A DNA stretch of 64,000 nt. It comes from Fredinandcohnia onubensis (GTDB taxonomy: Bacteria > Bacillota > Bacilli > Bacillales > Bacillaceae_L). Below the pieces are notes generated by a model. It did no database searches. It was not told where the DNA came from and saw only the letters and a program-made list of their open reading frames with translations. The stretch covers positions 124,001-188,000 of the forward strand of contig NZ_JAPSKV010000007.1 of the NCBI RefSeq assembly GCF_031181385.1. The letters are read 5' to 3'. Made by a program: the position numbers and the translations under genes. Positions 6,481-28,193 of the stretch are shown here, in pieces (position 1 is the first letter of the stretch; every line of letters begins with the position of its first letter).

Positions 6481-6684
6481 AGTTGTCAAAAAATTTTTAG
6501 CTACTTGTTTTTTTCGTAATATCTTGAAAAAATTGAAGCTAAATTTTATTTCGCAAAATTATTTTTTAAAGCTTATCACTGTGTAAATGATGATAACATG
6601 CGAGATATTAAAAAGTTGTTACAGAAAAGGGAAGGAAGTATTTGTAAAAAAGAATTATCTTAACATAAATGCCTCAAACCTTGA

Positions 6685-6700
6685 TGTGACGCAAATCACA
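6685..6700. promoter_or_regulatory. Fnr/Crp-type box between qoxA and the vanW-type gene
   Basis: TGTGACGCAAATCACA is a perfect TGTGA-N6-TCACA palindrome. The Bacillus Fnr consensus has TA in the centre, and here it is CA. It lies about 280 bp from qoxA and 135 bp from the vanW-type gene, so the target is uncertain. The rest of the 430-bp gap (6404-6835) is AT-rich promoter DNA without a gene. Confidence 0.5.
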
Positions 6701-6835
6701 GCATTTTTTTGAATTTGAACAATTTGTTACAAATTATAAAACGAAAAAAGTTCTCCTATTATTAATGGAATTTGAAGGAACCATCCATACTATAAAAAAA
6801 GAGTTTCAAAAAGGTGGTGGGGGACACTGAAAATA

Positions 6836-7711
6836 TTGTGGGCACTGATGCTTTTCCTTTCTATACAACAATTCCATCCTCAGGATAATCTTTATATAAC
6901 CTATAAAGGAGAACCGATCGCTACTGTAAATCGAGCTGAATACTCAGTACCATTGATTGGAGTTCCCACCTTGAATTTCAAAAAATATACGGACTTTCTT
7001 ACCTATTTAGAGGAACAAGTATACGAAGAGCCCAAGGATGCAAAGATTGGCAAATCGAATGAAATTATTAAAGAACAAGTAGGAGTGAAATTAGATAAAG
7101 ATAAATTCTCAAGGTTATTCTATTCTAGTTTTTTTGGTAAGGCAGATTACCTTGAAGTACCCATTCAACGAATTTATCCACGTGTAGATAGTGAACTATT
7201 ATCAACCATTCGGGTAAAACAGATTGGACAGTATGTCACGCATTTTAACTCTTCCAATAAAGAGCGTTCCACTAATATTGCTCTTTCAGCAGCAGCAATC
7301 GACAGCTATGTTCTTTTTCAAAATGAAACCTTTTCTTTTAATACAGTTGTTGGAAAACGAACCGCTGCCAGAGGATATCAGCCTGCGCCTGAAATCATTC
7401 GAGGTGAACTAATTGAAGGAATCGGGGGTGGCATATGCCAGACTTCCTCCACTCTCTTCAATGCCGTTGATCGTGCAGGTGTTAAAATTGTTAAGCGCTA
7501 CTCCCATAGCAAACGTGTTGGCTATGTACCACCTGGGCGCGATGCAACTGTGAGTTGGTATGGACCTGACTTTCTTTTTAAAAATACATTTAATCAGCCA
7601 ATTTTAATTCGTGCAAAGGTTTATGGAGGGACACTTATCGTAACCGTTTATTCATCTGAGGATATCAATTTTACCCCTCGAAAGATTGTACCTAAAACAA
7701 AAACGGAATAG
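6836..7711 (+). CDS. VanW family protein
   Basis: This 291-residue protein contains the VanW core at about residues 130-235, with the landmark segments NETFSFNTVVG, GGGICQTSSTLFNA and the PPGRDATV-WYGPD region. VanW proteins occur in vancomycin-resistance clusters and more widely in Firmicutes near cell-envelope genes, and their biochemical role is not established. The N-terminus is hydrophobic (residues 1-12) and may be a signal or anchor, so an extracytoplasmic location is likely. The start used is TTG at 6836 behind GGTGGGGGA. There are no resistance genes nearby, so it should not be read as glycopeptide resistance. Confidence 0.85.
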   Translation: MWALMLFLSIQQFHPQDNLYITYKGEPIATVNRAEYSVPLIGVPTLNFKKYTDFLTYLEEQVYEEPKDAKIGKSNEIIKEQVGVKLDKDKFSRLFYSSFFGKADYLEVPIQRIYPRVDSELLSTIRVKQIGQYVTHFNSSNKERSTNIALSAAAIDSYVLFQNETFSFNTVVGKRTAARGYQPAPEIIRGELIEGIGGGICQTSSTLFNAVDRAGVKIVKRYSHSKRVGYVPPGRDATVSWYGPDFLFKNTFNQPILIRAKVYGGTLIVTVYSSEDINFTPRKIVPKTKTE

Positions 7712-7847
7712 ATATTGATTATAGAAAACTAATTCTACACCTTTATAAGTCTGGGTGAATATATTAGAAATGGGCTAAAGAATATAAAAAACATTTATAT
7801 ACTCTCATTGACCCTATAATATCTGAATATAGTTATGGGGGGAGTTC

Positions 7848-8228
7848 ATGAATAAGGAGAAAAGGTCTGCTGTTATCACCGCTGCAACTGAAGTAAGTCA
7901 GAACAACTCGAACTCGTCTCCGGGAAATTTTGAATATAAACCACCAAACAATAGCGGAACAATCCTAGGAATAATTGGGGGGGTATTATCTGCCACCGGT
8001 GACGCTTTAGCAACGATCGGAGCAATCATTCAACTAAATACAGATACTTCTGTTGATTTTCAATCTCAAGTACACGATTATCACTCAGAACAAGATAAGA
8101 AGAAGATGCAGGAAGAAATTGATAATCTTCAAGAAAAAGTGAAACAGCTTGAGGAACTCATTAAAAATAACCAAAACCAAAATCAAAACCAAAATCAAAG
8201 AAAAAAAAGAAAGAGAGACCAAACATGA
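7848..8228 (+). CDS. Small protein with a Gly-rich hydrophobic segment, coiled coil and NQ repeats
   Basis: This 126-residue protein of unknown function starts at an ATG with a GGGGGGAG ribosome site. It has three parts: a polar Asn/Ser-rich start, a Gly/Ala-rich hydrophobic stretch at about 38-64 (GIIGGVLSATGDALATIGA), and a coiled coil at about 80-108. It ends in a run of Asn-Gln dipeptides followed by a Lys/Arg-rich tail. The stop codon abuts the convergent flavin reductase gene. The NQ run is encoded by a near-perfect AACCAA repeat and may vary in length between strains. I recognise no family; a membrane-associated or secreted role is a guess. Confidence 0.6.
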   Translation: MNKEKRSAVITAATEVSQNNSNSSPGNFEYKPPNNSGTILGIIGGVLSATGDALATIGAIIQLNTDTSVDFQSQVHDYHSEQDKKKMQEEIDNLQEKVKQLEELIKNNQNQNQNQNQRKKRKRDQT

Positions 8229-10482: not shown

Positions 10483-11184
10483 TTAATTTTGACGTGTATT
10501 TTTTGAATATCCATCACGTGCGCGGTATTGCTGTGGTGCCCTTGTTGGATAGCGCAACGGAAAACTAAACATATGCACAAGCTTTGTAAATGGAATCGAT
10601 GCAAATAATAGGAATGACAAAATCACATGCAATTTAAACAGTGGCGGAACTCCAAGCATTAATTCAGGCTGTGGATTTAATGTGAATAAGTTGCGAAACC
10701 ATGGCCCGATTGAAATCCGGTACTCATAAGCTGCTACTGTCGTGTTGTAGACGATTGTCATATATGTACCCAAACCAGCTAGCAGAAGTAGTAAGATAAT
10801 CGTAAAATAACTACCAACTGATGTATGAACTTGAACACGTTTGATTACGAACTTTCGGATCAAAAATAAGATCAATCCGAGGACAACCATTAATCCAGCA
10901 AACCCACCGCCTACTATTGCAAATAAGTGGTATGTGTGGTCGTCCACTCCAATAGCGTTGTAGAACTCAAGCGGAATCAACATCCCCATCACATGATCGA
11001 AAAAGGCAAAGATGATTCCGTAGTGAAAGATAATGGAAGCATAACGTAGCCACTTTTTCTCAAAAATTTCCGTTGATGGTGCTGTCCAGCTCTTCCCTCT
11101 AAACACGAATCGATAAAATGTTCCTACTACAAGAATCGCGATGCATATATAAGGATAGGCCGTCCACTAGAAGTGTAATTCCAT
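10483..11184 (-). pseudogene. narI: narI, nitrate reductase gamma subunit, with an amber codon near the start
   Basis: The frame encodes a near full-length NarI, the dihaem cytochrome b that takes electrons from menaquinol to NarGH. The natural start is ATG at 11182-11184 behind a GAAAGGGGG site, reading MELHF, then TAG at 11167-11169, then WTAYPYIC. So codon 6 is a stop where a hydrophobic codon is expected. The rest (about 225 codons) is open and keeps SIIFHYGIIFAFF and the closing LHVILSFLLFASIPFTKLVH, with its two haem His residues. A later internal start could give a 207-residue product lacking helix I. With narG absent the gene has no partner, so I call it a pseudogene. Confidence 0.85.
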
Positions 11185-11219
11185 CTAATAGCCCCCTTTC
11201 AAAATATTTTGATATAAAC

Positions 11220-11366
11220 TTATCCACATAAGAACATTTGTTTTCCACAACCTGTGGATCCTTTTGTGGATAGTGATGAGCGTTTCGCATTTTCCTTTTT
11301 CCACAATATCCACGTTATCCACAGAAAAGCATCATACTTATCCACATTGTCCACAAGTTATGAACA
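11220..11366. other. DnaA-box cluster between narJ and narI
   Basis: Three perfect DnaA boxes (TTATCCACA) lie at 11220-11228, 11315-11323 and 11338-11346. One-mismatch boxes are TTTTCCACA at 11241-11249 and 11297-11305, TTGTCCACA at 11347-11355, CTATCCACA (minus) at 11265-11273 and TTATGAACA at 11358-11366. Two-mismatch boxes occur at 11253-11261 (minus) and 11306-11314. The flank at 11198-11218 is almost pure AT. There is no dnaA, dnaN or rpmH here, so it is not the main origin. Similar clusters outside oriC in B. subtilis titrate DnaA. An integrated plasmid origin is the alternative. Confidence 0.8.
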
Positions 11367-11380
11367 TTTTCCCCGCTTTA

Positions 11381-11512
11381 ACTGGCAGTAAGACTCCTAC
11401 CTTTATGACGTAATTGAAGTGCAAGAAGTGAAAGGGGGTGATCAACTGCCAGTAAAAGCCCGATTGGTTCAACTAACATTCAGTGAGGGTTGAAATACCC
11501 CCCCACTGAATG
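11381..11512. repeat. Spacer with inverted repeats after narJ
   Basis: ACTGGCAGT (11381-11389) and ACTGCCAGT (11445-11453) form an inverted pair 55 bp apart. A 13-bp hairpin, CATTCAGTGAGGG with CCCCCACTGAATG, spans 11477-11512 directly after the narJ stop. In B. subtilis narJ and narI are adjacent, so this whole 340-bp spacer with the DnaA boxes looks like an insertion. It may be a dispersed non-coding element. Confidence 0.6.
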
Positions 11513-11522
11513 AAGTTTCACT

Positions 11523-12126
11523 TTATTGATAAAGCAGAGGATATGGAAGCTCTTCTAAATCCGCTTCCTCACGCTGATTTTCCAGCAATGTGATTTCTTC
11601 TGCTTCTGGTGTTTCAAAGACAAACATCATTAACAAGTCCACAATTCGGTGGTATGGATTCGAATCGAATAGGTTCTTGTGGACCCGATCAACAGCAAAC
11701 GCTAAACGGCGGTATAATCGTTCAAAATTCTCTCCCTCTGGTGCATGAACTAATAGCTCGAATAACATCGGGATATAATCCACAATTTCCTATCCGTGAT
11801 ATTCAAACCCACCTTCGACGATTAACCTTTTGGAGCTTAATTAATGCAGCTCCACGTTTTCTACTGTCGCCTAATTCATGGGCTGTTAAATAAAGACCTG
11901 TTTTATCCTTATAATCAAAGGTTTCTACATAAAGCTCCTGTAAGTCTAATAACGGCATCTTAAAAAGTGGTGCAATCCTTTCTAAGATTTCGTTTCTCAT
12001 TTTTACCGAGCCAACTTCTGCGTTCACATATTCCTCAATTTCCGGAAACCCTTCGTGAAGGGTCTTGTCCGGATAATCGAGAATTCGTGACATGATCATT
12101 AATATAGCTTTTGCTTCATTGGTCAT
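11523..12126 (-). pseudogene. narJ: narJ, nitrate reductase assembly chaperone, frameshifted
   Basis: The first part (12126 to about 11835) encodes a normal NarJ N-terminus (MTNEAKAILMIMSRILDYPD) up to AALIKLQK. The frame then shifts by one base near 11830 in an AAAAGG run. The restored frame reads LIVEGGFEYHG, meets TAG at 11790-11792, and continues as EIVDYIPMLFELL to the natural end. So there are two independent lesions. NarJ inserts the molybdenum cofactor into NarG, which is missing here, so loss of selection is expected. The ATG overlaps the end of the narH remnant, as in intact nar operons. Confidence 0.88.
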
Positions 12127-12418
12127 TGATTTCCACTTCTTTCGAATGGATAAGTCACCATTCCTTCAGGTGGTGCCAAATCCTCAATACTACATGCGCC
12201 TTGCTTGTAATGGAGGTCTTTTATCCATTTCCCGACGGCCTGTAGGAATAACGAAGCGTTCATTGTATTTTGCTACACCCAATAAACGTTGCATTTCTTC
12301 AAGCTCTTCAACTGTTGTATTTGCTTCTTTTAAGAGCTTAGACTTCTCCACTTCGTCAATTCCTCCAACTGTTTTGGCACGTATATGAACACGCATTGCT
12401 GCCATTTTCAAACCCCTT
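12123..12418 (-). pseudogene. narH: narH, 3' remnant, frameshifted and truncated
   Basis: Only about the last 97 codons of the iron-sulfur beta subunit remain. The fragment enters mid-protein at about 12418 (GLKMAAMRVHIRAK), reads through VAKYNERFVIPTGRRE, and is then thrown out of frame by an extra A in the run near 12222-12226. The natural end is recoverable in the next frame (DLHYKQGACSIEDLAPPEG onward) to a TGA that overlaps the narJ ATG. Everything upstream, including all of narG, is replaced by IS3-type sequence in the opposite orientation. It is clearly non-functional. Confidence 0.88.
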
Positions 12419-12788
12419 GAGGAAGCAATTAAAATTGTAAAAGACTCAAAGTATCGGACAACGATTCACTCTGATCAAGGATGGCAATACCAGCATAAGA
12501 AGTGGGTAAAAACACTTAAGGAAAATAAGATTTTCCAAAGCATGTCTCGAAAAGGAAACTGTTTGGATAACTCACCGATGGAAAACTTTTTTGGCTTACT
12601 AAAACAAGAGATGTATTATGGGGAAGCGTTGGGTTCGTTTGAGGAATTAAGAGAGAAAATTGATAGCTATGTAGAATACTATAATAATAAGCGTATTAAG
12701 CAAAAACTGGCGGGTATGAGCCCAGTACAATACCGACTCATTACCAGCCAATTAGCTGCATAATAAAAACTCTAACTTTTTGGGGTCA
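12419..12788 (+). mobile_element. IS3-family (IS150-like) 3' fragment
   Basis: A frame open from the narH junction (GAG at 12419) to a stop at 12764 encodes the last 115 residues of an IS3 orfB transposase. It has HSDQGWQYQH (second Asp of the DDE triad), NSPMENFFGLLK (catalytic Glu) and the YNNKRIKQKLAGMSPVQYR ending. A terminal inverted repeat follows, CTCTAACTTTTTGGGGTCA, ending at 12788. The left end, orfA and the first catalytic Asp are absent, so the element cannot move on its own. The missing IS half and the missing narG/narH sequence meet at one point, as after an adjacent deletion. Confidence 0.88.
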
Positions 12789-12813
12789 CATCACAACCTG
12801 TCCCTCTGCCCCA

Positions 12814-12871
12814 TAAAAAAAGGGACTCTTCCCTACTTTTTAAAGGTTTTTTTAAAAAGTGAGAGGAGTCC
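12814..12871. terminator. Hairpin overlapping the end of yueI
   Basis: GGGACTC (from 12822) pairs with GGAGTCC (12865-12871) around the yueI stop codon, with A- and T-runs on both sides. It can act in both directions, for yueI and for the IS fragment. Confidence 0.65.
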
Positions 12872-13282
12872 TTTTTTTTCGGATTTATTCTCTTGTGGTA
12901 GTATTGGTTTTCCTTTTTCCGTTATATAAATATCCGCTTTATCGATGGCATGATCGAATGCAAGTACTAGTCCGAGGTCAGAATTGTAGTCCTTGTTTGT
13001 GACAAGTGTGTACTCCATGTTGTTTGTACTCGCCAGCTTCACATATTTGGATAAAAAGTGATAATTCATATGACCATTTAAGTACATATGTACCCCGGTG
13101 TTTTTTTTACAAGCATCCTGTACTTCTTGGAATACCTTATTTTCTCTAACCTGTGATTGAGTTAACGCCAATAATACACGTTCCCTAATAGTTCCAAGAA
13201 ATTGTTTGCGCTCTTCTGGCTTTATTTCCTTCGTCCCATGTATCCCCTGTTGAAGATAGTCATCTACATTCTGCTTCGTCAT
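12833..13282 (-). CDS. yueI: YueI family protein (DUF1694)
   Basis: This 149-residue protein aligns well with B. subtilis YueI as I recall it: DYLQQGIHGTKEIKPEERK, then FLGTIRERVLLALTQ, then TNKDYNSDLGLVLAFDHAID. The family is soluble, limited to Firmicutes and of unknown function. The Lys-rich C-terminus (about residues 128-149) is longer than in B. subtilis and may be an amphipathic tail. The start ATG has a weak upstream GGAGG site. It is monocistronic with a terminator overlapping its 3' end. Confidence 0.85.
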   Translation of the reverse strand: MTKQNVDDYLQQGIHGTKEIKPEERKQFLGTIRERVLLALTQSQVRENKVFQEVQDACKKNTGVHMYLNGHMNYHFLSKYVKLASTNNMEYTLVTNKDYNSDLGLVLAFDHAIDKADIYITEKGKPILPQENKSEKKGLLSLFKKTFKK

Positions 13283-17935: not shown

Positions 17936-18667
17936 CTAATGTACTCCACCCGAATAGTCGCAAATTTCATATAAGCAATTGATTCGGTTGATTACGACTT
18001 TATGGTCGTACATTTCAACTATTCCTTCTCTTTTCCAGCTGTTTAAAATACGGTTGACACTTTCACGGGTAGTGCCGATGAAATCACCTAAGTCTTTGTT
18101 CGTTAGTTCGATTGCAAGTAGGATCCCATCCTTACACTTTACACCATGTGTTGTGGTTAGTTTAATTAATGTAGATGCCAATGCTCCTTGTTTGTCAAAA
18201 AACAGGAAATCGTATAATTTGTTCTGCATGATTCGCTGTGTCCAGCCAATCCAACTCATAAATTCAACTGCAAAATTCCCAAATTGGTATAATAACTTTT
18301 TCAAATCATTAATGTGGATGATACCGATCTCAGCAGCTTCTTCGACATCTGCACGGTAATTGTAGTATAGGTTTTCAGTGAAGCCGCCAAATTCTCCAAT
18401 TAGACTTCCTTTTTCTTTAATAGATAATAAGAAATCTTTTCCTCCTTCTGAGGATGCACGAAGTTTCACTCTGCCAGACTTAATATAATACAATTCTTTC
18501 GCTTCCTCACCATCCCAAAAGAGGTGAGTTCCCGCTCCTACTTTTCTTGTACGCATAATACTTTGTAATTTATTTAAATTTTCTTCAGATAAGAATTGAT
18601 CGATGCTTTCGTTAATTGACTCTATGTGAGGAATCTCGCTATTTAGTTCCTGTACAATCACTGCCAT
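17936..18667 (-). CDS. fnr: Crp/Fnr-family regulator, Fnr-like
   Basis: This 243-residue regulator has a cyclic-nucleotide-fold sensor domain (about 30-145) and a C-terminal winged helix (about 155-230) whose recognition helix contains GTTRESVNRIL. It is like B. subtilis Fnr in length and in FMSWIGW, LASTLIKL and the C-terminal Cys region. B. subtilis Fnr binds a 4Fe-4S cluster with three C-terminal Cys and an Asp. Here only Cys231 and Cys236 align with that motif, and the position of the first ligand appears to be Arg228. I chose ATG 18667, with GGGGGGAT upstream, over a longer frame. It is divergent from nreA and presumably controls the nitrate operon. Confidence 0.82.
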   Translation of the reverse strand: MAVIVQELNSEIPHIESINESIDQFLSEENLNKLQSIMRTRKVGAGTHLFWDGEEAKELYYIKSGRVKLRASSEGGKDFLLSIKEKGSLIGEFGGFTENLYYNYRADVEEAAEIGIIHINDLKKLLYQFGNFAVEFMSWIGWTQRIMQNKLYDFLFFDKQGALASTLIKLTTTHGVKCKDGILLAIELTNKDLGDFIGTTRESVNRILNSWKREGIVEMYDHKVVINRINCLYEICDYSGGVH

Positions 18668-18731
18668 TTTTAAATCCCCCCGTAATGACTTTATACTATA
18701 ATCATACGGCCAATAGTGAAAACGGGGTATC

Positions 18732-18873
18732 GGGGGAAATCCTGAACTTTTGCTCCGAATTCCCCTAATTATTCTCCCGTGATTTTCCCCTAGCCAAGCA
18801 TACCTCATAGGAATTTCCCCTAATAAGGATGTAAAGTTCATCTTTTTTGACCATAAAGTTAAGGGAATTCCCT
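18732..18873. promoter_or_regulatory. NreC-like sites in the fnr-nreA divergent promoter
   Basis: AGGGAATTCCCT (18862-18873) fits the NreC palindrome known from Staphylococcus (TAGGGN4CCCTA) at all inner positions. Three further half sites, seen on the plus strand as TCCCCTA, lie at about 18761, 18786 and 18815, and a GGGGGAAAT lies at about 18735. The whole 312-bp gap (18668-18979) contains no gene. The cluster suggests that phosphorylated NreC controls fnr, nreA or both. Confidence 0.6.
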
Positions 18874-18979: not shown

Positions 18980-19411
18980 ATGGAAGCAATACAAGTGGAA
19001 ATTGAACAAAAACTTCATGATTTGTGTACAAATACCTCAAGTGATTTCTCTGCATATGCAAATGTCGATCAAGATACTCATACAATCCGCTGGGAATATG
19101 CATACGGTTTTACAAATAACCGTTTTAAGAATATGGTCATTCGTCCAGGCAAAGGGTTATCCGGCTCCGTTGTCCGTTTTGGTATAACCATGATCCTAGA
19201 CATTGATACACCAAACCGACATCAAACACGACTCCAATATCCAATCATGCTAGCAGAAAACCTAGTTTCAGCTGTTGCAGTTCCGGTCCATGTGAATGGT
19301 AAGGTTGCTGGGGTCCTTCTAATCGGCTCACGCTCTGAAGTCAAATACACAACCGAACAAATCGTGTTATTAAAAAAGACAGCAAGCCAATTTGCTGAAA
19401 TAAAAAAATGA
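18980..19411 (+). CDS. nreA: NreA-type GAF-domain nitrate receptor
   Basis: This 143-residue protein consists of a single GAF domain: RWEYAYGFTNNRFKNM at about 38-53, GKGLSGSVVRFG at about 59-70, and AVAVPVHVNGKVAGVLLIGS at about 99-118. In Staphylococcus, NreA binds nitrate and inhibits NreB kinase until nitrate is present. Here nreA stands alone between fnr and the nitrate operon, while nreC-nreB lie 7.4 kb away on the other side of that operon. A GAGGAGAG site precedes the ATG. The assignment rests on fold, length and context. Confidence 0.8.
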   Translation: MEAIQVEIEQKLHDLCTNTSSDFSAYANVDQDTHTIRWEYAYGFTNNRFKNMVIRPGKGLSGSVVRFGITMILDIDTPNRHQTRLQYPIMLAENLVSAVAVPVHVNGKVAGVLLIGSRSEVKYTTEQIVLLKKTASQFAEIKK

Positions 19412-19597: not shown

Positions 19598-21112
19598 TTA
19601 ACCTTGTTTAACTTGTTTTCCGGTCATATCACTTAGCATACCGGCGTATTGCACGATATCCCCAGAATCATTTTTAATAGCACTGATTGTGAGCCATTGT
19701 AAGTAGTTTGATCCGTCCTTACGTTTGTTCCAGATTTGTCCTTGCCAGAAGCCTTCTGTTTCGATTTTTTGCCAGAGGTCCTCATAAAACTCTTTTGGCT
19801 GTTTACCAGATTTGAGGACACTTGGTGTCTTCCCAATAATTTCTTCCTCTCTAAAACCTGTAACTGTCGTAAAAGCTGGATTCACTAAAATGATTTTCCC
19901 ATGTAAATCGGTAACCATGATTCCTTCTGCGGTATGATCTATGACCTGTTTCGCAAGTTCCATTCTTCCGTTATAGTACATCCATACCACTAGAATTAAG
20001 CTTGCTAATGCCACCTCTGATAAGGCCATAAATCCAATTGCGTAATGTCCGTTGACATGGTAGAGAATCCCTAAGAGAATCGGTGGGAAAAATCCCCCTA
20101 GTCCGCCGATGGCTGATACAATACCATTCACAATCCCCGCTTGCTTTTGGAAATACATTGGTACTAATTTAAAAATAACCCCATTTCCCATGCCCGCGCA
20201 GAAAGCAATTGTTAAGCATCCGATTGTATACCAACCGATTGAGGGAGCAAATGATAGGATCATGGCAGACACTGTATAGCACCCGAACACAAACATTAAT
20301 AGTTTTAGAGAATGAAAACGGTCCGCTAGCCAACCACCTACTGGTCGCATCAAGGTTGCAAGAACAATAAATCCTGCCGTTCTGATCCCCGCATCAATCT
20401 TATCTAAACCGAAATTCTCCACTAAAAAGTTTGGTAAATAGACTGTAAAAGCAACGAAAGACCCAAACGTAATAAAGTAGAATAAGCTTAGAAGCCATAG
20501 TTTTTCATTTTTATAGACTCCTCTGATTTGCTCCATTAAAGGAGTTTGAACCTTTACTTCCTTTTTATCGCCTAATAAAAAGTTTGCTACGATAAAAATC
20601 GCTAGGACAATTAAATATAATTGAACGGTTAAAGACCAACCGATCTTTGTAGCAATCACTGGTGCTGCAAATGTTGAAATTGCAGTTCCAAGGTTACCCG
20701 CACCATAGATCCCGTTAACAAATCCGTGTTTTTCTTTTGGGTAGTATTTAGGCAATGAAGTAACCCCTACTGAGAAAACAGCTCCACCAATCCCAAGAAA
20801 CAGACCGCCAATCAATAGGTCAGTTACTGTGTTAGCTATACTAATATAGTAAACAGGGAACAACAATAAAATGAAACTTAGTAAAAAAATGATTCGTGCA
20901 CCAATTTGATTTGCGTAATATCCAAGTGGAATTCGCAAAATAGAACCTAGGACAACGGGTATTGCAGTTACCAACGCTAATTGATTTGCTGGAATATGAA
21001 TATCCTCTTTCATAAAAGGCAAGAGGGATGAAATAAGCACCCAGACCATAAAACCAACAACCAGGTTTAATGTTTGAAGGGGAAGTTGAATTTTCCTAAC
21101 CATTCTGTCCAC
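19598..21112 (-). CDS. narK: NarK-type nitrate/nitrite transporter fused to a C-terminal PAS domain
   Basis: This 504-residue protein has two parts. Residues 1-382 form a twelve-helix MFS transporter with the nitrate signature GIYGAGNLG at 134-142, its repeat CAGMGNGVIFKLVP at 305-318, and one membrane Arg per half (Arg60, Arg256), the pattern of nitrate-binding Arg pairs in NarK. Residues about 386-497 form a PAS/PAC domain (EGIMVTDLHGKIILVN, then KRKDGSNYLQWLTI), which ordinary NarK lacks. The PAS resembles that of the kinase encoded at 27087, but no kinase part follows. It ends the nitrate operon and overlaps the preceding gene by 17 nt. The PAS may sense redox state or gate transport; that is speculation. 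Confidence 0.9.
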   Translation of the reverse strand: MDRMVRKIQLPLQTLNLVVGFMVWVLISSLLPFMKEDIHIPANQLALVTAIPVVLGSILRIPLGYYANQIGARIIFLLSFILLLFPVYYISIANTVTDLLIGGLFLGIGGAVFSVGVTSLPKYYPKEKHGFVNGIYGAGNLGTAISTFAAPVIATKIGWSLTVQLYLIVLAIFIVANFLLGDKKEVKVQTPLMEQIRGVYKNEKLWLLSLFYFITFGSFVAFTVYLPNFLVENFGLDKIDAGIRTAGFIVLATLMRPVGGWLADRFHSLKLLMFVFGCYTVSAMILSFAPSIGWYTIGCLTIAFCAGMGNGVIFKLVPMYFQKQAGIVNGIVSAIGGLGGFFPPILLGILYHVNGHYAIGFMALSEVALASLILVVWMYYNGRMELAKQVIDHTAEGIMVTDLHGKIILVNPAFTTVTGFREEEIIGKTPSVLKSGKQPKEFYEDLWQKIETEGFWQGQIWNKRKDGSNYLQWLTISAIKNDSGDIVQYAGMLSDMTGKQVKQG

Positions 21113-21383
21113 ACACCTTTTTTACGATATAGGTTAATCCCGCTTGCTCGTCAAAAGCCGACCAAATATCATCACTTATTGCTACCTCTGCAGTTAAAGG
21201 GACCGCGAAGAACTGCAATCGGTCAAAATAAATGCGGAGGTGGGTCCGGTCCGGACAAAGCTCTGTTTTAATAATTTCCTTTTTTACGAACGGGGCTTTA
21301 TCATCCCCATCTTCATCCAAAATGGACACTTCCACATTTCCCAAAATGAAAGATTCCAAGCTACTAATTTCAGTTAACTCCAC
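21096..21383 (-). CDS. Small protein of the nitrate operon, unknown function
   Basis: This protein of about 95 residues is read from a GTG at 21381-21383, preceded at good distance by GAGAGGGTG. It overlaps the preceding gene by 14 nt and narK by 17 nt, so translation is probably coupled. The sequence is acidic early (ILDEDGDDKAP) and mixed later, with two cysteines (CPD and a C-terminal KKVCGQNG) and no membrane helix. A longer frame exists upstream to 21488, but it overlaps the preceding gene deeply and lacks a ribosome site. I recognise no family. Position suggests an assembly or accessory role. Confidence 0.6.
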   Translation of the reverse strand: MELTEISSLESFILGNVEVSILDEDGDDKAPFVKKEIIKTELCPDRTHLRIYFDRLQFFAVPLTAEVAISDDIWSAFDEQAGLTYIVKKVCGQNG

Positions 21384-21681
21384 AGCTGCCACACCCTCTC
21401 TTAACAGGATAGATGAACATTTTATATCCTTGAAGATAGGACCAAAAGGCATCTTCCGCATGTGTTTCGATGTAATCGATAGTTTCATCTTCGGATTGCC
21501 ATCTACTCATTCCTTTGACCTCAGCAATCACAATTTCAATGCCTTCCTCCGTCTTTTCCTCCAAGTACCAATTGAGTCGTATGCCCTTAAACAACTTGGT
21601 TAAGAGCTCATTAATTTCTTCTGTAAAATTACCGGTTGCCTCTCTTATAAAACAAAAATCGAGATAGGTTTCACTGTTCAT
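21370..21681 (-). CDS. Small protein with a C-terminal CGSCG motif, unknown function
   Basis: This soluble, acidic protein of about 103 residues starts at an ATG (21681) ten bases after AAGG. An upstream in-frame GTG at 21690 lies too close to that site. It ends in KRGCGSCGVN, so two cysteines sit almost at the C-terminus, a layout seen in some metal- or persulfide-handling proteins. The central part (SEDETIDYIETHAEDAFWSY) is likely helical. It lies six genes into the Nas-type reductase operon. A chaperone or cofactor-maturation role would fit a molybdoenzyme operon that otherwise lacks a NarJ, but no homology supports this. Confidence 0.65.
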   Translation of the reverse strand: MNSETYLDFCFIREATGNFTEEINELLTKLFKGIRLNWYLEEKTEEGIEIVIAEVKGMSRWQSEDETIDYIETHAEDAFWSYLQGYKMFIYPVKRGCGSCGVN

Positions 21682-21686
21682 GTACG

Positions 21687-21872
21687 TCACGCCTTTTTCA
21701 ACTTTTTATATACAATCCATGCGACTGGAAATAATACAATGTTTAAGCCGCAATAGATCAGCGTATTTACATAGTTTTCATAAAAATATTGATGCACCAT
21801 TTTTTGTGTGAAAATGATATTCAATAACAAGATGACGGATAGGAGGAGTACACCTTGGTAACTACGCTTCAT
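21687..21872 (-). CDS. Small two-helix membrane protein of the nitrate operon
   Basis: This 61-residue protein has two hydrophobic helices (about 7-23 and 36-55) and a basic C-terminus (VYKKLKKA). Its start lies inside the end of the Rieske gene (11-nt overlap) and its stop is 5 nt before the next start, so it belongs to the operon. It may be a small membrane subunit of the predicted respiratory complex, as small hydrophobic subunits are in other oxidoreductases. No family is recognised. Confidence 0.65.
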   Translation of the reverse strand: MKRSYQGVLLLSVILLLNIIFTQKMVHQYFYENYVNTLIYCGLNIVLFPVAWIVYKKLKKA

Positions 21873-22389
21873 ATCGTTTCACCCTCACCGCATAAACTGC
21901 ACCATTTTCCACCTTTACCTGAATTTCTGGCAATGGACGGCGTGGTGGACCTGCAGTTGGTGCACCCGTTTCTACATCAAAGAATCCGTGGTGGCAAGGA
22001 CAAACCATTTGGCCCTCCTCCTTCACCCAAAAAACAGGACAGCGGAGATGTGTACATGCATTTTGATAGGCCACATATTTGTTTTCGGAGAGTCTAATTA
22101 AAATGGCATCATCATGGTCACCAGGAAAAGTAAAGTCAATAGAATCTCCCACAGCCAATTTACTTACATCGGTGATTTTTTTATGTGAATATTCTTTTTC
22201 TCCAAGTCCCATTAATTCCTTAGCAGCAACAGCCCCCCATGGCAGGGATGAAATTGCAAACACTCCAGCTGCTCCAACTAATGTCTTCATGAAGCCACGG
22301 CGGTCAAGGCTTCTTTCATTTTTTCGGTTAATATTATGTGTGTAATTATCCTCATTAAAAGGAATTTTATTATTTTTATCAGACGGCAT
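21862..22389 (-). CDS. Rieske [2Fe-2S] protein with Tat signal
   Basis: The protein has about 175 residues. Near the N-terminus lies a twin-arginine motif DRRGFMK followed by a hydrophobic stretch (LVGAAGVFAISSLPWG), so the folded domain is exported by Tat and probably stays anchored. The Rieske site is complete: CTHLRC and CPCHHG give two Cys and two His ligands plus the disulfide pair. It resembles QcrA and the Rieske proteins of haloarchaeal nar operons. Here it follows the ferredoxin subunit gene and precedes small proteins and narK. An outside Rieske beside a NarI-like cytochrome b suggests quinol oxidation on the outer face. ATG 22389 was chosen for its AAGGAG spacing. Confidence 0.88.
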   Translation of the reverse strand: MPSDKNNKIPFNEDNYTHNINRKNERSLDRRGFMKTLVGAAGVFAISSLPWGAVAAKELMGLGEKEYSHKKITDVSKLAVGDSIDFTFPGDHDDAILIRLSENKYVAYQNACTHLRCPVFWVKEEGQMVCPCHHGFFDVETGAPTAGPPRRPLPEIQVKVENGAVYAVRVKRYEA

Positions 22390-22431
22390 TCCCATCACTC
22401 CTTAGCGGATGCTTCCTTTTTGAACATATTT

Positions 22432-22989
22432 CTAAAATAACTTCTCAATACCTTGTAAAATACCAGGTAAACTTATCTTTACGTTCGTTTCTCCCTCAAG
22501 GGGCATGCTTGTAACCCATTTTCCATTATCAAGATTATGGTGCTTCTTCTTATTTTCGATATCTTCATCTGTTAACCACTGGATCGTGTTAGACGGACAA
22601 ACACTTGCACACATCGGTGGAATGCCATCCTTTGAGCGATCGATACACAGGTCACATTTGTACATTAAGTTTTGCTCTTCATCGAATTTCGGAATTCCAT
22701 ATGGGCATGCAATTGTACAGTTCTGACAGCCAATACATTTCTCCACGAGTGCAGATAACACGGCACCTGACTCATGGATTTGAATCGCCTGTGCCGGACA
22801 GCTTCTAGCACAAGCTGGGTTTACACAGTGAAGGCACATAAGTGGCATGGTCTGTCTATTCACTAGCGGATTCACGTCATATACGTAGTTTCGGTTTCGT
22901 TGTTCATGCCCACCGCATTGTGTACATGCCGCAAGACAAGAGCGGCAACCGATACAGTTCTCAAGTTCTAAGTAAAGCCGTTTTTGCAT
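22432..22989 (-). CDS. Four-cluster ferredoxin subunit (DmsB/NrfC type)
   Basis: This 185-residue electron-transfer subunit has sixteen cysteines in four groups: CIGCRSCLAAC at about 12-22, CLHCVNPACARSCP at about 52-65, CIGCQNCTIACP at about 85-96 and CDLC with CASVCP at about 112-132. These should bind four [4Fe-4S] clusters, as in DmsB, FdnH and NrfC. Such subunits pair with a molybdopterin catalytic subunit and link it to a membrane anchor. Classical assimilatory NasC works with NasB or a small ferredoxin-like partner instead. The ATG directly abuts the stop of the catalytic subunit gene. Confidence 0.92.
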   Translation of the reverse strand: MQKRLYLELENCIGCRSCLAACTQCGGHEQRNRNYVYDVNPLVNRQTMPLMCLHCVNPACARSCPAQAIQIHESGAVLSALVEKCIGCQNCTIACPYGIPKFDEEQNLMYKCDLCIDRSKDGIPPMCASVCPSNTIQWLTDEDIENKKKHHNLDNGKWVTSMPLEGETNVKISLPGILQGIEKLF

Positions 22990-25158
22990 TTACTGCACCT
23001 TCTTTGCAACTAATTTTTCAATTTGGGCAGCACATGCCTTGAACTCTGGCATTCTTGAAATTGGATCAAGCGCTGCAATTGTCAGTAGATTAATAGATTC
23101 CTCATGACCAAAATGATATGGAACAAACACTGTATCTTTTCGGATAGCTTCCGTGATTTTCACTTTATAAATACTTTCTCCCCTTCTTGTAAAAAGGCGA
23201 ACACGTTCTTCATGCTGAATATCATATTTTGCCGCCAATTCTGGATGGACCTCTACATATGGTTCTGGACACATATCATGCAGAAACGAAATACGTCTTG
23301 TTTGGTTTCCAGATAAGTAGTGATACACGACACGTCCTGTTGTTAAGCGAAGTGGATAGTTTTCATCCGGTTCTTCTGCTGGTGGACGATATGGCAATGC
23401 ACAAATTTTGGCTTTTCCATCTGGATGATAGAATTTCTTATCGAGGAACATATGTGGTGTTCCCTTGTCTTCCTCATCACGGCATGGCCAGAATACCCCA
23501 TCTTGTTTTTCGATTTTATCCCATGTCGCCCCGTAATAATCGGCATAGCCACCTTTACTTGCGAGTCGGAACTCGTCGGCAACATCTCTGGCTGTTTTTA
23601 AGTGTGAAAAATATTCTCCTCTACCTAGACGCTCTGCAAGTTCAACCTGCATTTGCCAGTCAGGCTTGGATTCACCAATTGGTTCTTGTGCTTTATTGAT
23701 TTTAATAATACGTCCTTCAATATTCGTAACTGTTCCTTCATCTTCTGACCATGTCACAGACGGAAGAACAACATCTGCAAACTCTGCTGACTCTGATAGG
23801 TAAAAGTCTGCACACACCATGAAGTCCAGTGATTTAAGTGCATTTCTGACGAAGTTTAGGTTTGGTGCAGATACTGCTGGATTTGAGCAAAGGAGATAAA
23901 GTCCACGAATTGTCTTTTGTTCCATTAGTTCAAACATTTCATATGCAGAAACACCTGGTTTTGGCATTTCTTCTGGAGTAATCCCCCAAACACTGCAAAC
24001 TTCTTTAACATGCTCTGGATTCGTCAGTTTGCGGTAGCCTGGCAAAAGATCTGATTTTTGACCATGTTCACGGCCACCTTGCCCATTTCCTTGACCTGTA
24101 AAAGTGGCTACACCTGATTTTGGGCGGCCAATTTTCCCTGTAATAAGGGCCATATTTGTATATCCAGATACATTATCAACACCTTTATGTTGTTGCTCAA
24201 TACCGCGGGCAAACATCACAACCGCATTCGGTGCTTTTCCAAAAATCTCAGCAGCGCGGATAATCTTTTCTGGTGCAATTCCTGTTAACTCGCTTGTGTA
24301 TTCAGGTGTGAATTCCTTCACAAGTTCCTTCGTCTCTTCAAAGCCATTTGTGTGATTGGTAATAAATTCTTCATCTGTATAGCCATTTTTAATAAGCAAA
24401 TGTAACATCCCGTTTGCAAGGGCTAAATCTGTACCTGGTTTTAAATCAAGGTGCACATCCGCTCTTCTTGCTATCGGTGTTTCGCGCGGATCCACGACAA
24501 TGATGTAGCCTCCTCGCTCCTGTACATTCCAAACACGGAACATGGAAGTTGGATGACACTCTGCTGTGTTGCTTCCTGCGATAAATAAACAATCGGTTTC
24601 ATGGATATCCGTCCATGGTAATGTCGATCCACGGTCAACTCCAAAGGAGCGAAGGAATCCACCTGCAGCACTAGACATACAGAAACGTCCATTGTAATCA
24701 ATGTAGCGAGTACCTAATGCGACTCGAGCAAATTTTCCTGTTAAATAGCATTTTTCATTTGTCATCGATACTCCGCTGAACACAGATAATGAATCCTTCC
24801 CATATTCCGCTTGCAAGCCCCTGAACTTTTTAGCAATTAAATCATATGCTTCATCCCAACTTGCTTCCCGAAAGCCTTCTTTTGTTCCTTTTAAGGAAGC
24901 ATCATCACGAATAAGTGGTTTTAAGATTCGGTCTTTATGGTTCGTTTGCTGGTATGCCGTTACCCCTTTCGGACACATTTTTCCGACGGTTACCGGCCAA
25001 TCATAGCGTGGCTCAACCCCTACAATTTTGTTGGTGGTTGTATCGACTCGTAAATTCATTCCACATTGCATTCCGCAATAGCTACAATGTGTTTTAATTA
25101 ATTTTTCGTTTGGATGAATAACATTTTTAACTTCTTTAAAAAACTTATCCCTTTGCAT
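22990..25158 (-). CDS. NasC-type molybdopterin nitrate reductase, catalytic subunit
   Basis: This 722-residue protein belongs to the bis-MGD oxidoreductases and is closest to the assimilatory nitrate reductases NasC/NarB. The N-terminal [4Fe-4S] site is Cys25, Cys28, Cys32 (HCSYCGMQCGMNL) and Cys62 (MCPKG). NasC-like segments include FARVALGTRYIDYNGR, IAGSNTAECHP, ARGIEQQHKG, TGQGNGQGGREHGQKSD and LLCSNPAVSAPN. There is no Tat signal, so it is cytoplasmic. I chose ATG 25158, ten bases after AAGGAGG; a longer frame overlaps the upstream gene and lacks a site. NasC normally serves nitrogen assimilation, but its partners here are respiratory. Another oxyanion substrate is possible. Confidence 0.9.
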   Translation of the reverse strand: MQRDKFFKEVKNVIHPNEKLIKTHCSYCGMQCGMNLRVDTTTNKIVGVEPRYDWPVTVGKMCPKGVTAYQQTNHKDRILKPLIRDDASLKGTKEGFREASWDEAYDLIAKKFRGLQAEYGKDSLSVFSGVSMTNEKCYLTGKFARVALGTRYIDYNGRFCMSSAAGGFLRSFGVDRGSTLPWTDIHETDCLFIAGSNTAECHPTSMFRVWNVQERGGYIIVVDPRETPIARRADVHLDLKPGTDLALANGMLHLLIKNGYTDEEFITNHTNGFEETKELVKEFTPEYTSELTGIAPEKIIRAAEIFGKAPNAVVMFARGIEQQHKGVDNVSGYTNMALITGKIGRPKSGVATFTGQGNGQGGREHGQKSDLLPGYRKLTNPEHVKEVCSVWGITPEEMPKPGVSAYEMFELMEQKTIRGLYLLCSNPAVSAPNLNFVRNALKSLDFMVCADFYLSESAEFADVVLPSVTWSEDEGTVTNIEGRIIKINKAQEPIGESKPDWQMQVELAERLGRGEYFSHLKTARDVADEFRLASKGGYADYYGATWDKIEKQDGVFWPCRDEEDKGTPHMFLDKKFYHPDGKAKICALPYRPPAEEPDENYPLRLTTGRVVYHYLSGNQTRRISFLHDMCPEPYVEVHPELAAKYDIQHEERVRLFTRRGESIYKVKITEAIRKDTVFVPYHFGHEESINLLTIAALDPISRMPEFKACAAQIEKLVAKKVQ

Positions 25159-26230
25159 TCTGATTTGCCTCCTTGACTTTAACCTCGTGGGTTGGGAAGC
25201 CGGAAAATTGTGCAATCCGGTATTTTCTGCGACATGGAAGACACATTTCTGCTAAATGATGGCCTTCTCTCGTTTTAAAATGTATATCGTTCACATCAAG
25301 TACATTAATGACATCTTGTGACTGTTCAGTTGATACAAAACCTTCGCCGCAAACCTTACATTTCTTCGTTTCTTTTTCTGCATAATGCTCACGATAGTTT
25401 CTTGCCAACACACTCATTGGGCGGAATGGAATATGCGCAAGCTTTCCAAATGGCAAATAAATCAATGTGATAATCACTGACCATTGGTGGATGAGTGACA
25501 TCACCGGCTGACCTGCACCATGTAAGAAAATGTTCATGAAGGTTAAAAGTAAACCGGTAATGCTGACTAATAACAGCATGTAAAGTGGCAGCAAGTCATA
25601 CAAAAATTTTTGTTCAGCTCTTGCCTGTAGATTTTTCATTCGTCGGTACAATGCCATGCAAACCCCTGCAATTACCATGATTGCGGTAATATTTAAGGCA
25701 TTATAAGATAGATTCGCGATGATACCATCAGCAGGTACCGTCATGACTTGTATCCCCATCGCAATGATGTTGTAATAGCCATTCTCGTCCATCGTAAAAT
25801 ACATCCAACCGAAGACTAGTGGAAAAGTAACAAAACAAGAAAGGATGCAACCCCAACCGATTAAAATATGTTGGGTCCATCGGTAAATTCCCCTATTCCA
25901 AATGAAATTGTAGGTAGCTAAATGCTCTACAGATGTTTTTGGGGTTGATTTTCGAAATAAAAGTTTTATACCTTTTTTAATAATAATCTTCGTTGGCGGT
26001 CTTTCTCCCCAAGCAATGAAGCGGTAAAAGAAACCTCCAATGAAAACAATCGTTCCTACCATATAGCCGTATAGGTTTAAGTCAACATGTGTAAACATTC
26101 TCGTTCCAATAAATGATATAACCGCCAGCCCTAGCACAGATAAAAACATGGACTTGGCAAACTTTGATGCAAACGCATTATTATAAGCTGGTGTTTGCTT
26201 TTTTTGGATTGCTGCAGCTTTTGCCTGCAT
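25145..26230 (-). CDS. NarI-like dihaem cytochrome b membrane subunit with a two-CxxC tail
   Basis: This 361-residue protein is the first gene of the operon. It has six hydrophobic segments (about 27-46, 53-74, 121-145, 178-196, 212-236, 245-264) and His at 121, 237, 248 and 266. His248 and His266 are 18 residues apart, like His187 and His205 of E. coli NarI, and LAHIPF recalls the end of NarI. After the last helix a soluble tail carries Cys291-X2-Cys294 and Cys330-X2-Cys333, which could bind Zn, Fe or a cluster; NarI has no such tail. It probably oxidises menaquinol and passes electrons to the ferredoxin subunit. The gene overlaps the catalytic gene by 14 nt. Confidence 0.85.
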   Translation of the reverse strand: MQAKAAAIQKKQTPAYNNAFASKFAKSMFLSVLGLAVISFIGTRMFTHVDLNLYGYMVGTIVFIGGFFYRFIAWGERPPTKIIIKKGIKLLFRKSTPKTSVEHLATYNFIWNRGIYRWTQHILIGWGCILSCFVTFPLVFGWMYFTMDENGYYNIIAMGIQVMTVPADGIIANLSYNALNITAIMVIAGVCMALYRRMKNLQARAEQKFLYDLLPLYMLLLVSITGLLLTFMNIFLHGAGQPVMSLIHQWSVIITLIYLPFGKLAHIPFRPMSVLARNYREHYAEKETKKCKVCGEGFVSTEQSQDVINVLDVNDIHFKTREGHHLAEMCLPCRRKYRIAQFSGFPTHEVKVKEANQNAKG

Positions 26231-26331: not shown

Positions 26332-26440
26332 TTTGTAACAATTCCTTGAACGATTGATTTTCAAAAAAAACGTAAGAACATGCTATAATGGAACTACTGT
26401 GAATAGAAAACGTCTGATTCGTTTTAGGGGGAGGAATATC

Positions 26441-27094
26441 GTGGTTAAATTACTGATTGTGGACGACCATGCCGTTGTCCGTTCGGGACTGATGATGCTA
26501 TTGAACGGGAAAAATAATATAGAAGTAATTGGGGAAGCATCTGAAGGTGACGAAGCAATTAAAAAAGCAAAGGAATTAAACCCTGATGTAGTACTAATGG
26601 ATTTAAGCATGCCTCATGGAAAAGATGGATTAACTGCAACACAGGAACTTCACGAGCTCATGCCAGACATCGCAATCCTCATTTTAACCATGCACGATGA
26701 TGAGGAATACTTATTTAGAGCGATTCAATCTGGAGCTTCAGGCTATATTTTAAAAAATGCTCCACACGAGGATTTGCTAGGAGCAATTGAATCCGTTTCA
26801 ACAGGGAATGCCTATTTAACACCCTCTGCAACAAAGGTTCTAATGAGTGGATATTTGGATCGTGTCAAAAAGGGAGATAATGCGGACACATTCGCGTTGC
26901 TTTCAGAACGGGAAAAAGAAGTGCTCGAGTGGATTGCAAAGGGTTATTCAAATAAAGAAATCGCCGAGCGTTTAGTGATTAGTGTAAAAACCGTTGAATC
27001 ACATAAAAGCAACTTGATGGAGAAACTCGGGTTGAAATCTCGACCTGAGCTTGTCAAATACGCAATGAAGAAAGGATTATTGCATTTTGAATAA
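26441..27094 (+). CDS. nreC: Response regulator NreC (NarL/FixJ family)
   Basis: This 217-residue regulator has a receiver domain with Asp8/Asp9 and phospho-acceptor Asp54 (VLMDLSMP), a Thr and Lys later in the fold, and a LuxR-type helix-turn-helix (SNKEIAERLVISVKTVESHK) near the C-terminus. The start is GTG 26441 behind GGGGGAGG; a longer upstream frame runs through the promoter. In Staphylococcus, NreC activates nitrate and nitrite reductase and narK. Here nreC precedes nreB, with an 8-nt overlap, and both are divergent from the nitrate operon. Gene order C-B with A elsewhere differs from the staphylococcal nreABC order. Confidence 0.88.
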   Translation: MVKLLIVDDHAVVRSGLMMLLNGKNNIEVIGEASEGDEAIKKAKELNPDVVLMDLSMPHGKDGLTATQELHELMPDIAILILTMHDDEEYLFRAIQSGASGYILKNAPHEDLLGAIESVSTGNAYLTPSATKVLMSGYLDRVKKGDNADTFALLSEREKEVLEWIAKGYSNKEIAERLVISVKTVESHKSNLMEKLGLKSRPELVKYAMKKGLLHFE

Positions 27095-28193
27095 AATCGA
27101 CCGACTCAAACACCAATCTGAAATTGGCGGCCCAAATGTCATGAAGCTTTTGGCCGATCTAGATAAACACATTGAGGATCCTGCTTTTCGCGAAGATGTG
27201 GAGAAATCATTACGTCATCTTGCCGATTTAACCTTTGCACTTGATGAATCCTCGATTGTTGCAATTACAGATCGACAAGGAAAAATTCAATATATCAATA
27301 ATAAATTCTGCGAAATTTCAAAGTTTTCGAGGGAAGAGTTAATGGGGCAGGACCACCGAATCATTAATTCTGGCCATCATGACAAGGAATTCTGGAAGGA
27401 AATGTGGCGTACGATTGGGTCTGGCCATGTCTGGAAAGGTGAAATTAAGAACAAAGCGAAGGACGGCTCATTTTATTGGGTCGATACAACGATCGTTCCC
27501 ATTTTATCTGAAAATGGACGCCCCAACCAGTATTTAGCCGTACGACATGAGGTTACCGCATTAAAAGAAACACAGGAAGAACTAAAAAGCATGATGACCC
27601 GCGTCATCAGCATCCAAGAAGAAGAACGTAAACGTTTTTCACGCGAACTTCATGATGGCATTGGTCAAAGTATGTTTTCATTATTGATTCAACTTGATCA
27701 ATTGCTTAGTGAAAAGCCGGATGAGCGACTTGGCCGTTTGCGTCAGGATGTTTCTTTTATGATGGAGGACATCCGCAGTCTTGCCTGGGAACTTCGCCCT
27801 TCAGTGTTAGACGATCTTGGTGTGGTTCCAGCGCTTCGAAAATATATTGAGCACTACTCCCAGCATTACGGAATTGATGTGGAGTTCGAATGTACATTAA
27901 AGACACGCCTTGATATTCATAAGGAAACAACCATTTATCGCGTTGTCCAAGAGGCATTAACCAATATCGCCAAATACGCCAATGTAGCAGAAGCAGTTGT
28001 TAAGATTCATGAAGGCGATTCGGACGTCACCGTTGAAATAATCGACAAAGGCCAAGGCTTTACAGTTGATGAAAAAGGAAACGGTGTTGGCCTCTTCAGC
28101 ATGGAAGAACGTGCTCGAGGAGTTAATGGCAGCATTACCTTGGAATCCGAGGTTGGTAAAGGCACTTCGCTAGTGTTAGTGGTACCGAAATAG
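27087..28193 (+). CDS. nreB: NreB-like sensor histidine kinase with PAS domain
   Basis: This 368-residue kinase is cytoplasmic, without membrane helices. It has an N-terminal helical part (1-50), a PAS/PAC domain (about 51-160), a HisKA_3 dimerisation segment with phospho-acceptor His189 (RFSRELHDGIGQ), and an HATPase_c domain (about 280-368; NGVGLFSMEER). Staphylococcal NreB holds an O2-sensitive [4Fe-4S] cluster on four Cys in its PAS; here the PAS has only Cys75, so oxygen sensing by a cluster is unlikely. The PAS resembles the one fused to NarK nearby. It presumably phosphorylates NreC. Confidence 0.85.
   Translation: MNKIDRLKHQSEIGGPNVMKLLADLDKHIEDPAFREDVEKSLRHLADLTFALDESSIVAITDRQGKIQYINNKFCEISKFSREELMGQDHRIINSGHHDKEFWKEMWRTIGSGHVWKGEIKNKAKDGSFYWVDTTIVPILSENGRPNQYLAVRHEVTALKETQEELKSMMTRVISIQEEERKRFSRELHDGIGQSMFSLLIQLDQLLSEKPDERLGRLRQDVSFMMEDIRSLAWELRPSVLDDLGVVPALRKYIEHYSQHYGIDVEFECTLKTRLDIHKETTIYRVVQEALTNIAKYANVAEAVVKIHEGDSDVTVEIIDKGQGFTVDEKGNGVGLFSMEERARGVNGSITLESEVGKGTSLVLVVPK

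Follow-up and report, generated by a model that had tools for sequence, protein, structure and literature searches.

A NasC-type nitrate reductase module with membrane cytochrome b, four-cluster ferredoxin and Rieske subunits, widely conserved in Bacilli and a candidate for nitrate respiration

Nitrate reductases of the NasC/NasA clade are held to serve assimilation alone, as stated in the relevant passages of PMC7331816 and PMC10100899, and in the former Wells and colleagues further state that the clade has neither a subunit with four [4Fe-4S] clusters nor a membrane-anchor subunit. Here we describe a gene cluster in which a NasC-type catalytic subunit is joined by a membrane cytochrome b, a four-cluster ferredoxin and a Rieske protein. 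It consists of eight minus-strand genes packed into one run at positions 19598-26230 of a 64,000-nucleotide stretch (the window) from Fredinandcohnia onubensis (contig NZ_JAPSKV010000007.1 of assembly GCF_031181385.1, positions 124,001-188,000). Open reading frames and family calls, made as Pfam and NCBIfam profile matches on the window proteins, bear out the gene list of an earlier reading of this sequence (the original prediction), with every gene it named present in this single tight run. The cluster is a real and widely conserved nitrate reductase module that fits the definition of neither Nar, Nap nor canonical Nas. From the genes observed, their order and conservation, their phylogeny, the cofactor residues and the regulatory setting, we consider it likely that the gene products form a menaquinol:nitrate oxidoreductase that is attached to the membrane and serves dissimilatory nitrate reduction.

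Several described systems resemble this cluster in part. The canonical Bacillus NasBC-NirBD system has a catalytic subunit of the same family, with the molybdenum-site motif YNGR(F/L)CM and no export, and is accompanied by NirB-like partners and TnrA boxes, whereas the window-type cluster has the membrane cytochrome, the four-cluster ferredoxin, the Rieske protein and FNR boxes or NreA/NarL-like genes. NarGHI shares with the window cluster a cytoplasmic molybdenum subunit, a four-cluster ferredoxin, a NarI-like membrane subunit and NarK; the window cluster differs, however, in that its catalytic subunit is not NarG, its operon lacks narJ, a Rieske protein and a two-helix peptide are added, and three of the four haem histidines are found. 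FdnGHI provides the closest solved ferredoxin (1kqf_B), but in the tree the catalytic subunit of the window does not group with the formate dehydrogenase references. In haloarchaeal Nar a Rieske protein and a cytochrome b also occur, but there the catalytic subunit is NarG-type and exported. For the Nap cluster of Caldithrix abyssi, the passage concerned proposes a Rieske/cytochrome b pair as quinol oxidiser for a Nas/Nap-type enzyme, although that cluster differs in having a periplasmic NapA, multihaem cytochromes and a bc1-like cytochrome b (PMC5317091). In Bacillus bataviensis, Heylen and Keltjens (2012, PMC3475470) noted a nasC linked to genes for a 'hybrid iron sulfur protein' and a Rieske protein (BABA_16882-16872 for the three) and read these as an alternative assimilatory system; their passage on these genes mentions no cytochrome subunit. 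The gene order by locus tags is the same and the catalytic subunit is 729 residues long, and this likeness in tags, order and length suggests that it is the same cluster, which would then probably have been sighted in 2012 already and taken for an assimilatory one. We saw no description of the complex as respiratory in the literature searched by title, abstract and passage, with subscription journals mostly outside that search.

The catalytic subunit and the spread of the cluster

The catalytic gene (22990-25158, minus strand) most likely starts at ATG 25158, giving a product of 722 residues, and not at TTG 25215, from which the open reading frame is listed, because the frame upstream of this ATG is closed by a stop codon in 64 of the 80 type A relatives. 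By type A we denote the best 80 of 367 relatives from a scan of named genomes, nearly all of them Bacillaceae. In the 722-residue product no segment passed the hydrophobicity threshold applied, and the first residues carry no twin-arginine translocation (Tat) motif, which agrees with the predicted lack of an export signal and separates it from Nap, whose catalytic subunit is Tat-exported. It scores 869.5 bits against the NCBIfam NasC model (cut-off 1100) and 64.1 bits against NarG (cut-off 1084), and thus does not belong to the NarG family that defines Nar. The proposal of a module matching none of Nar, Nap and Nas was sustained by this and by the comparison with canonical nasC loci described below.

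The best PDB matches of the catalytic subunit are formate dehydrogenases, an identity that we rejected because both the tree and the active-site motif group it with nitrate reductases. Its molybdenum-site motif reads YNGRFCMSSAA, and the C-M pair in it is common to canonical NasC, NapA and the Nas references from Klebsiella, Paracoccus and Tsukamurella, whereas the formate dehydrogenase references have C-H in four of five cases and C-Q in the fifth. A C-M as opposed to a C-H at this place generally tells nitrate reductases from formate dehydrogenases. The tree comprised 56 catalytic sequences under a single model, LG+F+R5, set without a model test. Besides the window sequence it included seven type A sequences out of 80, all three of type C, 10 of the 11 of type B and nine of the 10 class-level loci; L148 entered as a 412-residue fragment, while type B locus L115 (a 496-residue fragment), class-level locus L149, the 5-kb loci and L120-L122 were left out. 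The cytochrome-linked catalytic subunits formed one clade (support for the Bacilli 100), separate from canonical NasC and sister to a group of canonical Bacillus NasC and one nirB-linked Deinococcus enzyme (support 99), and all of these fell inside the Nas/Nap nitrate reductase group (support 100), apart from the formate dehydrogenase references. The catalytic subunit therefore stands as NasC-type and among nitrate reductases, as had been predicted.

The cluster is also conserved as a unit. The genes for the cytochrome, the catalytic subunit, the ferredoxin, the Rieske protein and a 61-residue peptide are present and collinear in all 80 type A loci, and those for the 106-residue and 130-residue-type proteins (see below) in 79 and 78 of them, respectively. 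Types B and C, in 14 longer loci, have the four redox genes in the same order together with a two-helix peptide, which was spotted by eye after the Rieske gene in these loci, with hydropathy calculated for three examples. Four of four Deinococcus plasmids (L125, L165, L166 and L167) show the same gene order by annotation, with an MFS transporter next to it (called a nitrate transporter in two of the plasmids) and then a regulator of the GAF or BTAD kind, and the cytochrome of one plasmid is 32% identical to that of the window. The gene order cytochrome b, NasC-type subunit, ferredoxin, Rieske protein, which the original prediction proposed to search for, thus recurs in two phyla. In the annotation of all four plasmid records, the NarI-like cytochrome (6675-7787 or 7001-8113) carries the name 'MFS transporter'.

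To describe the distribution we used two overlapping samples, of 159 genomes from the order and 299 from the class. The cytochrome was found in 39 genomes of the order sample. The NasC profile picked out two groups of genes there. One comprises 28 canonical genes from 27 genomes, at 1172-1347 bits; the other comprises 44 genes from 39 genomes that score below the cut-off, at 697-946 bits. Each of these 44 has a cytochrome gene no more than 1 kb away, and the idea of a NasC with a chance neighbour was rejected on this ground. Cluster and canonical nasC occur together in 14 of the 159 genomes. In the class sample, 31 of the 299 genomes matched a profile of all types; a single-sequence query of a phylum sample, also of 299 genomes, matched no genome other than that of the window. 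On gene content, the presence of the cluster in 39 of 159 and 31 of 299 genomes contradicts the quoted passage that denies the NasC/NasA clade a four-cluster or anchor subunit (PMC7331816).

Redox subunits and the proposed electron path

The first gene of the operon encodes a NarI/QmoC-like membrane cytochrome b of 361 residues (25145-26230, minus strand). It scores 36.3 bits against the NCBIfam QmoC model, far below the cut-off of 300. Across types A, B and C and Deinococcus, residues H121, H248, H266, C291, C294, C330 and C333 are invariant, and in a weak match to the solved NarI (E 0.1 overall) the counterparts of H248 and H266 are His187 and His205, which we take to be haem ligands. The cysteines form two CxxC pairs about 35 residues apart in the C-terminal domain (25145-25360); these may bind zinc or iron and could serve for docking the ferredoxin subunit.

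The ferredoxin subunit (22432-22989, minus strand), of the NarH/FdnH/DmsB type by Pfam, NCBIfam and alignment, has 16 cysteines for four [4Fe-4S] clusters, as predicted and as in Nar, and all 16 are kept in 81 of 81 type A sequences. Its best solved match is 1kqf_B (FdnH), and its solved relatives include both FdnH and NarH. The Rieske [2Fe-2S] protein (21862-22398, minus strand; Pfam Rieske 41.6 bits) retains the cluster ligands C115-H117/C133-H136 and a likely disulfide pair, C120/C135, in 81 of 81 type A sequences. These residues (C115, H117, C120, C133, C135 and H136) and R33, R34 and F36 are invariant across the types and Deinococcus. The protein was rightly called Tat-type: it has the invariant R33 R34 F36 motif and a single hydrophobic segment at residues 35-53, the putative N-terminal anchor. 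The Pfam matches, for the cluster as for the neighbouring genes, include no cytochrome c family.

From these features we infer the formation of a complex, the quinol donor, the direction of the reaction and each electron-transfer step. Menaquinol would be oxidised at the outer side of the membrane by the cytochrome b subunit and the outward-facing Rieske protein; since the Tat motif faces the latter outward, it may take the first menaquinol electron beside the cytochrome. Electrons would then cross the membrane via haem b and travel along the ferredoxin, over its four [4Fe-4S] clusters, to the catalytic [4Fe-4S] cluster and the molybdenum in the cytoplasm. Nitrate imported by NarK would be reduced there and nitrite would leave the cell. 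Energy would be conserved as in Nar, with protons set free on the outer side and consumed on the inner side. A more far-reaching version of this scheme makes the cluster a respiratory nitrate reductase class of its own that occurs across Bacilli and Deinococcus. Menaquinol oxidation would be bifurcated in it, the Rieske centre outside receiving one electron and haem b the other, and would yield more energy per nitrate than Nar; the class would have been overlooked because surveys seek narG or napA and its parts are annotated as assimilatory enzymes or transporters; this version we regard as rather doubtful.

Regulation, nitrite and competing explanations

The NasC type of the catalytic subunit, the two statements that this clade is assimilatory alone (PMC7331816, PMC10100899) and the assimilatory role proposed by Heylen and Keltjens for the probably identical Bacillus bataviensis genes (PMC3475470) all favour another view, namely that the cluster is an alternative assimilatory nitrate reductase which, in place of NADH, uses the membrane or ferredoxin as its electron source. 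With regard to regulation, the evidence points the other way. FNR boxes, with one mismatch or none, were sought in a 350-base region upstream of the cytochrome gene, types B and C being pooled; type A counts refer to the 78 of 80 loci with more than 150 upstream bases, and the shuffled controls keep base composition only. Such a box occurs in 11 of the 14 type B/C and seven of the 10 class-level loci, as against about 0.5% of shuffles. For TnrA we used the general box pattern of this regulator. The stricter form of it was present in six of 10 canonical nasC loci (eight sites, 0.2 expected), where FNR boxes were not enriched (two sites, 5.2 expected). Among the cytochrome clusters it was seen in three of 14 type B/C loci (the sites being at least 4 kb from the cytochrome gene), none of the 10 class-level loci and three of the 80 type A loci, and a looser pattern was not enriched upstream of these clusters either. 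NirB-like genes accompany all 10 canonical nasC loci, none of which has the cytochrome; conversely, none of the 10 class-level cytochrome loci has a NirB-like gene, type A and type B/C loci not having been searched for it. The TnrA box that marks nitrogen control of canonical NasC is thus rare at the cytochrome clusters, and of its linked NADH-oxidising or siroheme partners (NasB, NirB) no NirB-like gene was seen in the class-level loci.

In type A the regulatory context consists of neighbouring genes. NreA-, NarL- and kinase-like genes were all detected by tblastn near 65 of the 68 type A loci with full flanks, and near 64 with a stricter identity. In the window these are an NreA-like GAF protein of the nitrate sensor family (18980-19411, plus strand; NCBIfam NreA 99.6 bits, under the cut-off of 175), a NarL/LuxR-type response regulator identified by Pfam and NCBIfam and divergent from the operon (26354-27094, plus strand), and a PAS histidine kinase with HisKA_3 (27087-28193, plus strand). 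With FNR boxes in types B and C or NreA/NarL-like genes in type A, regulation of the clusters looks respiratory and not nitrogen-assimilatory.

The genome from which the window comes (estimated completeness 100) adds to this. It has no NIR_SIR protein (11 of 14 control genomes were positive), no NirB above the cut-off, no NrfA (only one of the 14 controls was positive) and no narG that we could find, and assimilation is therefore unlikely. Nitrite would not be assimilable through a siroheme nitrite reductase or NrfA; other nitrite routes were not searched. Moreover, 14 of the 39 order-sample genomes with the cluster also have canonical nasC. Taken together, we judge the assimilatory explanation unlikely. 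As a separate matter, no protein with PF01077, the siroheme nitrite/sulfite reductase domain, was found in this genome, and sulfate assimilation may therefore be missing too.

A remnant of a nar operon lies about 7-9 kb from the cluster (10483-12465, minus strand). It comprises an open narI frame (10483-11106; Pfam 210.6 bits, matching the profile from position 30 or 34 on), an N-terminal piece of narJ (11803-12126; 55.5 bits, just below the cut-off) and, within 12190-12465, a C-terminal piece of narH (40.9 bits); a frame at 11526-11789 appears narJ-like by eye, with no family match. The decayed narGHJI of the original prediction is accordingly recognisable in its narH and narJ pieces and its open narI frame, while narG was not found.

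Several observations weigh against nitrate respiration by this complex, or against parts of that reading. Full-length narG is present in the other eight of the nine genomes of the genus, together with a cluster of type A in seven cases and of type B in one, and in the order sample narG and the cluster are independent (both are found in six of 39 genomes, with 6.4 expected and p=1.0). Within the class sample the two do occur together less often than expected (two of 31, 8.4 expected, p=0.005, uncorrected for relatedness), but avoidance of narG was rejected as general evidence because it is absent from the order sample. It follows that the proposed replacement of narGHJI fits the window strain and is no general rule. 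The similarity of the cytochrome to NarI stays below the cut-off (Pfam Nitrate_red_gam, 22.2 bits against 22.9), and its AlphaFold model is poor, with a predicted local distance difference test (pLDDT) score of 61.5; a fold search with this model gave no match at E <= 0.001. The fourth NarI haem histidine has no invariant counterpart in what is a weak alignment, and for this reason one bis-His haem is likely and the second uncertain; the cytochrome, called dihaem in the original prediction, falls short of that name with three of four haem histidines invariant (H121, H248 and H266), and short of the Nar membrane subunit with its four. The Rieske protein would lie on the outer face of the membrane, away from the cytoplasmic active site, and its part in the complex is therefore hard to explain. 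Type A loci seldom have an FNR box (four of 78, against about 1% of shuffles), and the best match in the promoter of the window cluster, with two mismatches, does not exceed chance. Two references annotated as nitrate reductases have C-T at the molybdenum site (Streptomyces L130 and Deinococcus aetherius L138), the Deinococcus enzymes join the cytochrome-linked clade with a weak support of 68, and some copies of the cluster look broken (L115, L148 and L149).

The coexistence with full-length narG in eight of nine genus genomes, and the difference in regulation between the types, would also suit a side branch of the quinone pool that balances redox state or detoxifies nitrate without sustaining growth, a part that Nap plays in some bacteria. 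We consider this quite improbable given the FNR boxes of types B and C and the window genome itself, which has lost narG and keeps the cluster as the only Nas/Nap-like enzyme among its three matches to the catalytic subunit. That the complex respires another substrate (chlorate, iodate or selenate) or runs as an oxidase, oxidising nitrite, is very unlikely: molybdoenzymes switch substrate easily, iodate- and arsenite-type enzymes also have a Rieske subunit and the matches of the window Rieske protein include small subunits of arsenite oxidase, but a NarK-family transporter and an NreA-like gene are linked to the cluster, and the active-site motif is that of canonical Bacillus NasC, to which the catalytic subunits form a sister clade.

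Nitrate respiration, the reading we prefer, would bear on how nitrate reducers are recognised. The cluster is widespread yet unrecognised; its gene content suggests that its bearers respire nitrate with it, and puts in doubt the statement that NasC/NasA enzymes are exclusively assimilatory (PMC7331816, PMC10100899, in the passages quoted). A survey of Bacillota used narGH and napA as nitrate reductase markers, according to its relevant passage (PMC11388526); if the reading is true, Bacilli lacking narG or napA may be nitrate respirers that such surveys miss, and the origin of respiratory nitrate reduction would include a Nas-related branch. Neobacillus nitrireducens, in the passage concerned, reduces nitrate under oxygen without napA, for which narG has been suggested (PMC13199352); its close relative N. 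drentensis (L029) carries the cluster, which is another candidate for this activity. Bacillus sp. DNRA2 (L066), a studied nitrate-to-ammonium reducer, also carries the cluster and is credited with 'nap' in the corresponding passage of PMC10653820.

Small proteins and neighbouring genes

Downstream of the Rieske gene lie three small genes on the minus strand. The 61-residue membrane peptide (21687-21872) has two hydrophobic segments by hydropathy and no family match over the cut-off. Its place and two-helix topology are the same as those of DUF6755 in Deinococcus, but hhalign gave no support for homology to DUF6755, at a probability of about 1% or less (one Deinococcus sequence), whereas the two-helix peptides of types A, B and C are alike (hhalign 72-96%). 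The 106-residue protein (21370-21690), found in type A, has a confident AlphaFold model of a ferredoxin-like alpha/beta fold (pLDDT 91.3), a conserved Cys13 and a C-terminal GC..CG; its Foldseek matches are weak, two of them at E <= 0.001, and NapD is absent among the 50 matches listed. Overlapping its gene is that for a weakly conserved type A protein of up to 130 residues with an uncertain start (21096-21488). Neither of the latter two proteins has a Pfam or NCBIfam match, and neither gave a tblastn match in the type B/C loci. One contig of Niallia endozanthoxylica carries the cluster twice, with about 34 kb between the copies (L014 and L055), the second without detectable genes for the 106- and 130-residue proteins.

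The last gene of the operon encodes a NarK-family nitrate/nitrite transporter with a C-terminal PAS domain (19598-21112, minus strand; NCBIfam NarK 228.6 bits, cut-off 311.7). Beyond it and the NreA-like gene lies a Crp/Fnr-family regulator (17936-18841, minus strand; NCBIfam Crp 72.6 bits, under the cut-off of 266). The histidine kinase is NreB-like by its place. NreB proper carries a four-cysteine motif, and since no such motif is conserved in 74 kinase sequences near type A loci, these kinases are not NreB proper and that identity was rejected. At locus L015 a 218-residue HisKA_3 kinase without a sensor domain (12253-12909) lies between the cluster and the NarL/NreA-like genes, and many other type A loci have a weaker kinase or PAS match at the same place. 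The PAS domains of the window's transporter and kinase both match the NifL/DibA type, below the model cut-offs, hinting at a shared redox sensing.

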